Positions 35,898-57,060 of a DNA stretch of 64,000 bases are shown here, in pieces. The notes beneath the pieces are model-generated. The model searched no databases. It was not told the DNA's origin and was given only the letters and a program-made list of their open reading frames with translations. Position 1 is the first letter of the stretch. The number at the start of each line of letters is the position of its first letter. The DNA lies in contig NZ_JAEHGE010000001.1 of assembly GCF_016097415.1 (NCBI RefSeq), positions 645,001 through 709,000 on the forward strand, given 5' to 3'. This DNA is from a sulfur-oxidizing endosymbiont of Gigantopelta aegis. GTDB lineage: Bacteria; Pseudomonadota; Gammaproteobacteria; GRL18. The position numbers were made by a program, and so were the translations under genes.

Positions 35898-36176
35898 TCA
35901 CTCTGTAATACCCTCAAAGATAAGCGTGTTCTTTTTACTTCGGCTGAAAGTTTTTATTTCATATTCTCGTTGACTCGCACTGACACGATCATGGCCTTGT
36001 TCTATAAACACTATTTTTTCAGGCTTTCGCCCATAAAAATATTTCGCTCCTTTTTTGCTTTTATGTTGCTCAAAACGTCTAATAATATCCGTTGTAATTC
36101 CAGTATACAATGATTGATCACTGCACAAGATAATATAAACCAACCAGTTTTTCTTATTTTTTTGAGAGTCTTGCAA
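35898..36176 (-). CDS. GIY-YIG nuclease-fold small protein (UPF0213-like)
   Basis: 92 residues. LVYIILCSDQSLYTGIT is the GIY-YIG core (variant VYIIL...YTGIT), with the Arg of RRFEQHKSKKGAKYF and the Glu of REYEIKTFSR. Small stand-alone GIY-YIG proteins of this type (YhbQ-like) are common and their role is unsettled, perhaps DNA repair. It lies 15 bp after the response-regulator gene and may be cotranscribed with it. Confidence 0.85.
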   Translation of the reverse strand: MQDSQKNKKNWLVYIILCSDQSLYTGITTDIIRRFEQHKSKKGAKYFYGRKPEKIVFIEQGHDRVSASQREYEIKTFSRSKKNTLIFEGITE

Positions 36177-36191
36177 AATAAAATCAGCGTA

Positions 36192-36566
36192 TTATTTTTC
36201 TAAAATTCTTTCAATAGTTTCTATCAACTCATCTGTTTTCACCGGTTTTGCTAAAAATTCATTGCCACCGATAGTATTACCCATATCTTCTGTTTCTGCC
36301 TTGGTGACAATGGCCGTTAAAAAAACATAGGGAATAGATGCTAAATTATCATCTTCTCTGATTTCTGCAATGGCTTCATCACCACTCATGTCCGGCATCA
36401 TGACATCCATAAAAATAAGGTCGGGTTTAAACTCTCTAGTGGCTTGTAATGCTTTGCTTCCTTGATTTTCTGTACGTACTTCATAATTGCCTGTACGCTC
36501 AAGATTCATTTTTATCATCTTGGTTAGGACAGCTTCATCATCTACAACTAATATTTTTTTAAGCAT
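36192..36566 (-). CDS. Response regulator, receiver domain only (CheY-like)
   Basis: 124 residues covering a single receiver domain: acidic pair VVDDEAV, phosphoacceptor Asp in DLIFMDVMMPDMSGDEA, Thr/Ala switch in PYVFLTAIV, and Lys in FLAKPVKTDE. There is no output domain. Immediately upstream is a MITE, then the sensor kinase in the same direction; the kinase probably phosphorylates this regulator, but the MITE may affect coupled transcription or translation. Confidence 0.92.
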   Translation of the reverse strand: MLKKILVVDDEAVLTKMIKMNLERTGNYEVRTENQGSKALQATREFKPDLIFMDVMMPDMSGDEAIAEIREDDNLASIPYVFLTAIVTKAETEDMGNTIGGNEFLAKPVKTDELIETIERILEK

Positions 36567-36583
36567 TTTCCTTGTCTCCTTTT

Positions 36584-36763
36584 ATCCTAAAATAATCAGT
36601 TGAATCGTAGCGAGAGCGACTTAGGTGCTGAAGATTAAGGGTTTTACAGGTTATTTTGGCTTTATTCGTAGTCACCCTACGGGTGAAGTCAAAATGTTCT
36701 GGAAAATCCTTAAGATTCAGTGCATAAGGCGGTCGCAGTAGGTTCAACTGATTTTTTTAGGTT
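36584..36763. mobile_element. MITE-like 180-bp element, copy 1 (between response regulator and sensor kinase)
   Basis: The two ends form a near-perfect inverted repeat: CCTAAAATAATCAGTTGAA on the left and the complement of CCTAAAAAAATCAGTTGAA on the right. The interior matches the copy at 56561 except for a few bases. There is no transposase. On the minus strand it contains an ORF of about 60 codons starting MNLLRPPYALNLKDFPEH, present in both copies but not convincingly a gene. Its right end lies inside the kinase frame and supplies the last 15 or so codons and the stop. Confidence 0.85.
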
Positions 36764-38488
36764 TATGGCTAAATAAATTGTCACGATAACACCCTGGGCG
36801 TTATTATCTTTACGGTTTGTCATCGTAATCATACCATGATGCAAGCCTATAATTGTTTTTGATACTGACAAGCCTAATCCAGTTCCCTCACCAACTGCCT
36901 TAGTGGTAAAAAAAGGCTCAAAGATATTTTTTTCGTGCCCCTTATCCAAGCCATAACCTGTATCTAAGATTTCAATTACAATGACTTCCTGATGTAGATA
37001 AAAGTGTCCAGCCGATTTTTTTACTTGTTTTACATCTTCAATATGATCTAAAAACGTACGGACAATTATTTCACCATCACTATTATCGGTGTTATTGATA
37101 TGATTTTCTCTTTGTTCCTTAATGGCATGTACCGCATTCATAAGCAAATTAATAAAGACTTGCTGTAAGCGATTTTTATCCATATCGATATTAGGGATAT
37201 ACTTATCCAAGGACTTTTGTAATACGATATTATGCTGCTTAAATTCATGTTCTACTAATTTAAGCGATTTTTCAATCACTTCATTGATATTACCCTGACT
37301 GACAATCAGCTCTTTTTCTCGGGAATAATCCAGCAGCCCTTTAATAACCCTATCAGCTCTTGCAATGGCATCATCCATATCATCTAGAATGGTAACAATA
37401 GTCTCATTATTTTTTTCACCTTTTAAATAATCTATACTCATTTGTAAAATGGCCAAAGGATTTTTTACTTCATGTGCAATACCTGCCGATAAACGCCCTA
37501 TTGATTCCATCTTTTCTGCATGAATAAGTTTCACATTGGCATTTTCCAATGCCTTACTACGGCGTGCAACCTGCATTTTTAGACTACGATTCCAAAAAAG
37601 TATGGCAATAAAGCCTATCATAATAATAAGACTGATCAGTAATGCTTTGGTACGAAATTCACTGGATTGCCAAAAAGAAACCTTCTGTAATTTTATCCAT
37701 TTATTATGAATCACTTCCATTTCTTTTGTTTGTAAGCTGGCCAAGGTTTTATTGAGTATCTGCTGAAAAATGGGCCAATCTTTTCTCACACCCAGTGCTA
37801 ACTCCATGAACTGTCTTTTTTTTGCTTGTACCGGTACAACATGTAAATTTGTTATGCCATCATGGTGAACAATATAACTCACCGAGGCCAAGTCACTGAC
37901 CATTGCATCAATTGCACCTAATACCGCTAACTCGATACCCATTTGTGTGGTTTCCACACGCACTATTTCAATTTCATTATCATGTTCAGAAATCAATTCA
38001 TCCCAAATGTAATTACTAACCACTCCTACTTTTTTACCATTGAGTGCTTTAATGCTGCTATATTTTTGAGCAGAAATAATCACCCCAGGGATTTTGATAT
38101 GACTTTTGGTAAACAACATATATTGTTCACGTTGTTTATTTTTTGCAATGGTGGGCAATAGATCGATCTGTCCAGACTTAAAAGCATCTAATACGGCTGT
38201 CCAGTCCTTTTTTTCTATTAATTTAAAATTAATATCTAATTTTTGTTCTATCAGATTTAAAATCTCAATTGACATGCCACGATATTCATCGTCAACATCC
38301 TGCCATTCAAAGGGTGGGAAGTTTTTATCATGAGCGATACGAATATTGGGGTGCTCTTTGAGCCATTGTTGTTCTTTCTGACTCAATAAGAGCGTGTCAG
38401 CGTAACATTCTGTGAATGTGATAATCACTAAAAAAATGAATATTTTTAGTCGTGTGGGATTGCTCATTGTCGTCTCTATATCCGTCAC
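36710..38488 (-). CDS. Periplasmic-sensing histidine kinase (SBP_bac_3 sensor, HisKA, HATPase)
   Basis: 592 residues. Signal peptide, then a family 3 solute-binding domain (about 35-265) as periplasmic sensor, a membrane helix (KALLISLIIMIGFIAILFW), a short coiled coil, HisKA with GRLSAGIAHEVKNPLAIL, and HATPase_c with FINLLMNAVHAI, LDTGYGLD and GEGTGLGLSVSK. BvgS/EvgS-type sensors share the SBP_bac_3 input. The last residues KKSVEPTATALCTES are encoded by the MITE, so the native C-terminus or stop has been replaced, apparently without loss of catalytic boxes. Start may be Met8 (38467), which gives a better signal peptide. Confidence 0.9.
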   Translation of the reverse strand: MTDIETTMSNPTRLKIFIFLVIITFTECYADTLLLSQKEQQWLKEHPNIRIAHDKNFPPFEWQDVDDEYRGMSIEILNLIEQKLDINFKLIEKKDWTAVLDAFKSGQIDLLPTIAKNKQREQYMLFTKSHIKIPGVIISAQKYSSIKALNGKKVGVVSNYIWDELISEHDNEIEIVRVETTQMGIELAVLGAIDAMVSDLASVSYIVHHDGITNLHVVPVQAKKRQFMELALGVRKDWPIFQQILNKTLASLQTKEMEVIHNKWIKLQKVSFWQSSEFRTKALLISLIIMIGFIAILFWNRSLKMQVARRSKALENANVKLIHAEKMESIGRLSAGIAHEVKNPLAILQMSIDYLKGEKNNETIVTILDDMDDAIARADRVIKGLLDYSREKELIVSQGNINEVIEKSLKLVEHEFKQHNIVLQKSLDKYIPNIDMDKNRLQQVFINLLMNAVHAIKEQRENHINNTDNSDGEIIVRTFLDHIEDVKQVKKSAGHFYLHQEVIVIEILDTGYGLDKGHEKNIFEPFFTTKAVGEGTGLGLSVSKTIIGLHHGMITMTNRKDNNAQGVIVTIYLAINLKKSVEPTATALCTES

Positions 38489-56426: not shown

Positions 56427-56560
56427 TGTCAGTTACATGAAATTATTACAAAAAATAATACAAGAATATATAGAGAGAAACCCTGATAATAAAAAATCCT
56501 CATTAATTTAGTGTATTTCAATATTAAAGCATCAAGAGATCGAGTAAAATTTGTCTATTG

Positions 56561-56740
56561 AACCTAAAATAATCAGTTGAATCGTAGCGAGAGCGACTTA
56601 GGTGCTGAAGATTAAGGGTTTTACAGGTTATTTGGGCTTTATTCGTAGTCACCCTACGGGTGAAGTCAAAATGTTCTGGAAAATCCTTAAGATTCAGTTC
56701 ATAAGGCGGTCGCAGTAGATTCAACTGATTTTTTTAGGTT
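56561..56740. mobile_element. MITE-like 180-bp element, copy 2 (upstream of ppnP)
   Basis: Starts with CCTAAAATAATCAGTTGAA and ends with the complement of CCTAAAAAAATCAGTTGAA; the interior is almost identical to copy 1 at 36584. It lies 32 bp before ppnP and may have changed the gene's promoter. No clear target duplication is visible (left flank ATTG, right GAAG), and no transposase with matching ends occurs in the window. Confidence 0.85.
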
Positions 56741-56772
56741 GAAGCACATACATTCTGTAAACTGGAGTTTTT

Positions 56773-57060
56773 ATGTTTGAAGTAAATGAGTATTTTGACG
56801 GCAAGGTAAAGTCCATTGCCTTTAATAGTGTTGATGGTGATGCGACGGCAGGCGTTATGGCAGCAGGTGAATATACTTTTGGTACGAGTAGCATTGAATT
56901 AATGACAGTGACCAGCGGTGAAATGCAGGTTAAATTGCCCGGTGCTGATACTTGGCAAACTTATACAAGCGGCGAAACATTCAGAGTCGAAGCCAAGCAA
57001 TCCTTTGATGTCAAAATGACCACAGATGTCGCCTATCTCTGTGTTTATATCAACGAATAA
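56773..57060 (+). CDS. ppnP: Pyrimidine/purine nucleoside phosphorylase PpnP
   Basis: 95 residues, a single small cupin: FEVNEYFDGKVKSIAFN, ATAGVMAAGEYTFGTSS, EMQVKLPGADTWQTY and YLCVYIN are the YaiE/PpnP family lines. Phosphorolysis of several nucleosides in the cytoplasm. It follows the MITE and is 14 bp before the DUF3025 gene, so the three genes to 58123 probably form one operon. Confidence 0.92.
   Translation: MFEVNEYFDGKVKSIAFNSVDGDATAGVMAAGEYTFGTSSIELMTVTSGEMQVKLPGADTWQTYTSGETFRVEAKQSFDVKMTTDVAYLCVYINE

Follow-up and report, generated by a model that had tools for sequence, protein, structure and literature searches.

An IS1380-like MITE at a kinase-regulator junction and strand-specific covariation of the hairpin in its family

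Introduction

How has a MITE come to lie between a sensor kinase and its response regulator, what has it changed there, and why does its family favour one strand of its own palindrome? These questions are raised by a window of 64,000 nucleotides, the whole stretch of DNA analysed here, from the genome of a sulfur-oxidizing endosymbiont of Gigantopelta aegis. An earlier note on the same DNA had described two near-identical copies of a MITE with terminal repeats and no transposase, the first of which supplied the end of a sensor kinase with complete catalytic boxes, and had proposed that the insertion altered only the kinase tail and the spacing to the regulator. Here the element is delimited and traced through its own and related genomes, the junction is compared with that of relatives lacking the element, and the palindrome is analysed for covariation.

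Results

Bounds and ends of the two copies

The features of the two copies in the window are as follows.

36586..36761, + strand (the strong-hairpin strand): MITE copy 1, IS1380-type, 176 bp
36581..36585, no strand: target duplication TTTAT, left, of copy 1
36762..36766, no strand: target duplication TTTAT, right, of copy 1
56563..56738, + strand: MITE copy 2, 176 bp, 98.3% identical to copy 1, upstream of the ORF at 56773
56558..56562, no strand: target duplication TTGAA, left, of copy 2
56739..56743, no strand: target duplication TTGAA, right, of copy 2

CCTAAAATAATCAGTTGAATC opens copy 1 and the complement of CCTAAAAAAATCAGTTGAACC closes it; 19 of 21 bases match between these ends. The imperfect palindrome takes in the entire 176-bp element, ends included, and a transposase ORF is absent from it. 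With 3 of 176 positions differing between the copies, the earlier description of two near-identical, transposase-less copies with terminal repeats is borne out. The bounds given at the time, 36584-36763, held the element and in addition a few bases of the target duplication; the 5-bp duplications themselves, present at both copies, had been overlooked.

A recently active family of insertions

In the window's genome (4.9 Mb in 11 contigs) at least 40 full copies were scored, with identities of 99-100%. The 19-bp end was found 79 + 90 times at up to 2 mismatches (169 ends), while the reversed pattern, searched in the same genome with the same tolerance, gave 0 + 0 matches. The many near-identical copies and the contrast with the control exclude chance similarity, and the element belongs to a recently active transposon family. 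At least 56 distinct insertion contexts were read, which answers the call for a search for further copies, and the counted ends correspond to about 80 copies, all copy numbers being derived from sequence searches. Of the 30 listed copies of this genome, 25 lie between perfect 5-bp AT-rich duplications, 5-bp duplications also flank most copies in relatives, and matches to the MITE occur in 21 of the 24 genomes of the taxonomic family.

Short derivatives with an internal deletion and both ends kept were seen at L031 1501-1555 (~55 bp) and at G000 C1:3640669-3640772 (L063; ~104 bp). Two copies on contigs C10 and C1 (L004 and L007) agree in their flanks and in an imperfect duplication, TATAT/ATTAT, and represent either a duplicated segment or an assembly overlap.

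The autonomous partner

An exact scan for the 19-bp end over 84,980 genomes yielded 68 stretches, mostly from Gammaproteobacteria (Methylococcales, vent or symbiont MAGs) and from Nitrosomonas. Single matches in unrelated phyla are likely to be due to chance, and viral contigs gave no exact match to the 19-bp end. In 5 MAGs (L105, L116, L124, L139 and L151) the end bounds a 1695-bp IS with the inverted end at the far side and one transposase ORF of ~500 aa. This transposase matches Pfam DDE_Tnp_1_4 with 62.7 bits, above the Pfam cut-off, and in NCBIfam it matches IS1380 best, with 125.6 bits; since the latter score is under the family cut-off of 180, we name the element IS1380-like and regard its transposase as a divergent relative of that family. 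The sequence which the MITE has in common with these ISs is limited to the ~19-bp ends. CCT ends and AT-rich 5-bp duplications are in keeping with the IS1380 family, as seen in ISEcp1.

In the window's own genome two decayed and interrupted IS1380-like transposase copies were found (C1:879-881 kb and C1:3492.7-3494.4 kb), with ends CCTAAAAACCGCAG / CCTATAAAAATCAGTT that are related to those of the MITE and with 5-bp duplications TTAAA and ATAAA; an intact IS1380-like transposase was not found in this genome. Another genome of the genus (G013) holds an uninterrupted IS1380-like transposase ORF at 60% identity. The search for an autonomous IS with the same ends, suggested by the earlier note, was thus successful in five other MAGs, and in the window's genome only as far as decayed copies with related ends. 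The element is short, has terminal inverted repeats and target duplications, is dispersed in dozens of copies and shares its ends with IS1380-like elements elsewhere, and its designation as a MITE stands on this anatomy; from the same features we infer mobilisation in trans by an IS1380-like transposase.

Further candidates for a mobiliser or autonomous element were rejected. An intact 502-aa ORF near C1:3495.7 kb (L301) encodes a DDE transposase without CCTAAAAWAATCAGTTGAA ends. In the stretch L144, with inverted ends 1.6 kb apart, Cas1- and Cas2-like genes and no transposase lie inside, and in the stretch at G000 C1:848130-852295 (L061), with inverted ends 4.2 kb apart, a MITE is split by an ISL3-type transposase gene, which an IS21-type insertion interrupts in turn.

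As side observations, the Cas1-/Cas2-like genes of L144 (positions 603-2226, a Methylococcaceae MAG), named by reading the proteins, lie within or beside inverted MITE ends. The 1.9-Mb genome G008 of the same genus has 38 matches, with dozens of IS1380-like transposase fragments, a pattern suggestive of an IS that multiplied and afterwards decayed as the genome shrank.

The kinase-regulator junction

The genes at copy 1 are the following.

36710..38488, - strand: sensor histidine kinase (SBP_bac_3 + HisKA + HATPase_c), 592 aa, ending inside the MITE
36710..36761, - strand: MITE part of the kinase ORF, yielding LKKSVEPTATALCTES and the TAA stop
36192..36566, - strand: stand-alone response regulator (Response_reg), 124 aa

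The kinase ORF overlaps the MITE by 52 bases and its tail reads N-LKKSVEPTATALCTES-stop, the N codon consisting of 2 duplication bases and the first MITE base. The residues and stop codon had been rightly assigned to the element, in a string that begins late with respect to this partly duplication-derived codon. Six frames enter the MITE from its two ends, and the one used by the kinase (the second frame from the right end) runs by far the furthest without a stop; read from the sequence, the other frames stop within 18 bases. HisKA (residues 331-391) and HATPase_c (437-573 of 592) are whole, in agreement with the claim that the catalytic boxes are complete. From the kinase stop to the regulator ATG there are now 143 nt, and the ribosome-binding site of the regulator, AAGGAG, lies just outside the MITE. 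Because the MITE folds upon itself, this site is predicted to be unpaired, with a probability of 0.89 in the presence of the MITE and 0.78 in the empty site. Downstream of the regulator, a small ORF at 35898-36176 (- strand) looks by eye like a GIY-YIG nuclease domain.

The state before insertion is visible in relatives. In 7 genomes of the genus an orthologous regulator (81-89% identity) comes after an orthologous kinase (51-61%) and no MITE separates the two; this is the comparison with element-free relatives for which the earlier note had asked. The regulator of these 7 pairs starts 2-21 bases past the last aligned kinase codon, and in 3 of them an ATGA is common to kinase stop and regulator start. 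When the flanks in the window are joined at one TTTAT, the kinase tail becomes ...VTIYLAIKGDKENA-stop (...YLAIKGDKENA and the stop) and overlaps the regulator ATG; its IKGDKENA resembles the IKGTKST and VKGEKKQ found within the orthologous tails FVIKGTKST and FAVKGEKKQ, other such tails being SINGE and FALKEEQGK. Seven tight MITE-free junctions and the overlapping rejoined tail indicate therefore that the ancestral junction was an overlapping one. Compared with the rejoined flanks, KGDKENA at the kinase end has given way to NLKKSVEPTATALCTES, and the near-contiguous pairs and the likeness of the rejoined tail to those of relatives support the earlier proposal that tail and spacing were changed. 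The kinase tail KSVEPTATALCTES in a gene without the MITE, named in advance as the observation that would speak against it, was not found among 16 genomes of the genus.

Gene ends are a common destination for this family. When genes are called simply from codon usage, a stop codon is supplied by about 9 of the 56 copies, with gene overlaps of 5, 10, 18 or 52 bases as the frames of the MITE dictate, and many further copies in the same 56 contexts are no more than 20 bases away from a stop codon. Since so many copies supply stop codons, the case of the kinase tail is routine for the family. Insertions next to tandem genes show no significant bias in orientation (18 sense, 12 antisense), a distribution which does not speak for any regulatory action of the strong strand at host genes; transcription of the kinase operon reads the strand with the weaker hairpin. 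Searches within the MITE for an internal promoter or an intrinsic terminator gave nothing above shuffles.

It is well possible, though we would put it somewhat below an even chance, that the MITE is inert junk in the kinase operon and that the new tail and spacer are without effect on either protein. HATPase_c extends to residue 573, short of the changed tail, the regulator has retained its ribosome-binding site, neither the sequence nor the length of the tail is kept among orthologues (SINGE, FVIKGTKST, FALKEEQGK), and many copies sit at gene ends. What speaks against inertness is the junction itself, tight in 7 of 7 orthologous pairs, which suggests that coupling is normally kept. Our best estimate for the kinase locus remains an effect on the operon, in which the coupling by overlap would be lost and the kinase:regulator ratio modestly changed.

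Strand-specific hairpin

The predicted RNA fold of the MITE has an energy of -91 kcal/mol on the + strand (z -13.6) and of -57 on the - strand (z -8.4), because some pairs that are G-U on the + strand are A-C on the - strand. Every full-length, well-bounded copy in the genus (73-89% identity to copy 1) folds more strongly on the + strand, typically by 20-35 kcal/mol.

Covariation was assessed in 29 non-redundant copies, <95% identical to each other, and since these copies are related the cell counts are to be read as non-independent events. The consensus structure comprises 70 pairs with 1646 Watson-Crick, 334 G-U, 9 A-C and 36 other cells, the A-C cells being 9 of 2025 filled, and double changes from one Watson-Crick pair to another were found in 37 of the 70 pairs. 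On the + strand 97.8% of the cells pair, against 81.7% when the same columns are read as the - strand. When the letters of the 3' side were dealt anew, 89.8 +/- 0.35% of cells paired, and shuffles gave 21.5 +/- 1.9 compensated pairs with a maximum of 29 in 500 shuffles, compared with the 37 observed; with columns slid by 1-3 the paired fraction was 34-49%. The 70-pair structure had been predicted on the + strand, and the count was repeated with a strand-neutral palindrome alignment, which gave 321 G-U against 32 A-C and more G-U than A-C in 29 of 29 copies. In 16 held-out copies of a second genus, unused for the structure and 89-96% identical to the nearest training copy, the figures were 180 and 5.

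A double-strand process makes no distinction between G-U and A-C, and for this reason the bias is ascribed to selection on one strand. This comparison shows a family held by selection, in two genera, to a hairpin of ~80 bp on one strand only. The strand-specific covariation is new with respect to the earlier note, and more interesting than the case of the kinase tail. The family with a near-exclusive G-U wobble hairpin consists of 36586-36761 in the window and the relatives L214-L271 and L305-L324. A scan of the window with Rfam 15 at the gathering threshold gave no match, and a literature search for RNA covariation in bacterial MITEs returned nothing on point.

In REP and IS200/IS605 systems hairpins show strand polarity as a rule, and selection could in the present family likewise act on a hairpin of single-stranded DNA during replication or transposition. 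The + strand folds better with DNA energy parameters too (-45.8 vs -32.6), by a smaller advantage than with those for RNA. We nevertheless consider this explanation improbable, as 5-bp duplications and a DDE-transposase partner point to a double-strand mechanism and a G-T pair adds far less stability to DNA than a G-U pair does to RNA. A mutational origin of the G-U bias with no RNA function, either by C-to-T change on one strand of a perfect palindrome or by homogenisation of the arms, is very improbable: the + strand has little C in paired as well as in unpaired columns, and the two arms of a long inverted repeat may become homogenised, but G-U interchanges with both G-C and A-U (columns 75-107: GT 17, AT 7, GC 4; columns 68-114: TG 16, TA 12), the A-C intermediate that double-stranded DNA should yield equally often is almost absent, C-to-T bias alone yields neither T-G to T-A changes nor 37 compensated pairs, and arm conversion would leave Watson-Crick pairs on both strands without preference for G-U. 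The conserved hairpin is thus most likely an RNA, made by transcription in the + direction.

Elements with the same ends and other arms

The same 19-bp ends are found in L097, L109, L117, L123, L129 and L144, several of which have unrelated arms. These six share a central motif resembling TCACCC-N3/4-GGGTGA, and on reading of the strand-neutral palindrome alignment L097, L117/L129/L144 and L123, with otherwise unrelated arms, have it in common with the MITE family. The Methylococcaceae members L117, L123, L129 and L144 are without G-U bias, and strand selection is therefore not general to elements with these ends. The unrelated-arm family of L097 was dropped as a covariation set, since a single full copy, beside two fragments, is all that its genome contains. 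In the Methylococcaceae elements L111, L117, L123, L125, L129 and L144 the sequence CCGTTCGTGCTGAGYNTRTCGAA was noticed; it resembles a widespread intergenic palindrome and is possibly another repeat captured by the MITE.

Discussion

The explanation that we propose for this locus begins with an IS1380-like DDE transposase, which would recognise CCTAAAAWAATCAGTTGAA ends, move the MITE in trans and make 5-bp AT-rich target duplications in doing so. The MITE inserted at TTTAT into a kinase-regulator operon with overlapping genes, replacing KGDKENA by NLKKSVEPTATALCTES, abolishing the overlap and placing 143 nt with a self-contained hairpin in front of the regulator, which keeps its own ribosome-binding site, predicted to be unpaired. 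The presumed consequence is a loss of translational coupling and a modest shift in the kinase:regulator ratio while kinase catalysis stays intact. The explanation as a whole, an IS1380-like MITE moved in trans, a rewritten kinase tail and a family with a hairpin selected on one strand, is in our judgement very probably correct. The locus provides a tested case of a mobile element that rewrites the end of a protein and removes the gene overlap of a two-component operon, the empty state being visible in relatives.

One may go further and speculate that the family is itself a selected RNA, which spreads or persists by means of its ~80-bp one-strand hairpin and whose apex, TCACCC-N3/4-GGGTGA, is recognised; we offer this tentatively and hold it to be rather doubtful. 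If it were true, G-U pairs would let the RNA pair fully while the DNA remains an imperfect palindrome (~72% self-complementary), and this imperfection might spare the MITE from nucleases that cut palindromes. With ~80 natural insertions in one genome, hundreds in relatives and a covariation of this strength, the family lends itself to the direct question of whether MITEs of bacteria are maintained as RNA hairpins, and why on a single strand.

Among known systems, ERIC or RU-1 of enterobacteria is a 127-bp imperfect palindrome in many copies with a long RNA stem-loop and a reported orientation-dependent effect on neighbouring mRNA (PMC2229807, PMC10969869, PMC2267715); for ERIC at the 3' ends of genes, exposure to RNase E has been published (PMC10969869). 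ERIC has a 7-bp TIR with 5'-TA (PMC2229807), whereas the present MITE measures 176 bp and has ~19-21-bp CCTAAA ends and 5-bp duplications; in length, ends and sequence it is not an ERIC element. The Correia or NEMIS elements of Neisseria form a transcript hairpin that is cut by RNase III in the mRNAs containing it (PMC10969869, PMC2229807). They resemble the present MITE, in which such a hairpin is predicted, and differ from it in their ends and host. Correia, ERIC and related elements are also known to fuse with reading frames (PMC2229807).

The likeness to QMITE1 and QMITE2 of Coxiella burnetii concerns the gene ends, and the comparison is made by description. The QMITEs are gammaproteobacterial MITEs at the 3' ends of functional genes, the hairpin transcript of QMITE2 is predicted at -113 kcal/mol, and one QMITE supplies the last 33 residues of EnhC (PMC5896051). 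They share with the present family a long hairpin at gene ends and the supply of a protein tail. Covariation on one strand, seen in the present family, was not found in the consulted passages of that paper (PMC5896051), and set beside the QMITEs our MITE is distinguished by an identified partner IS type, IS1380-like, and by the disruption of a kinase-regulator junction. By analogy with these systems, the rewriting of a kinase tail by a MITE has its precedent among known MITEs.
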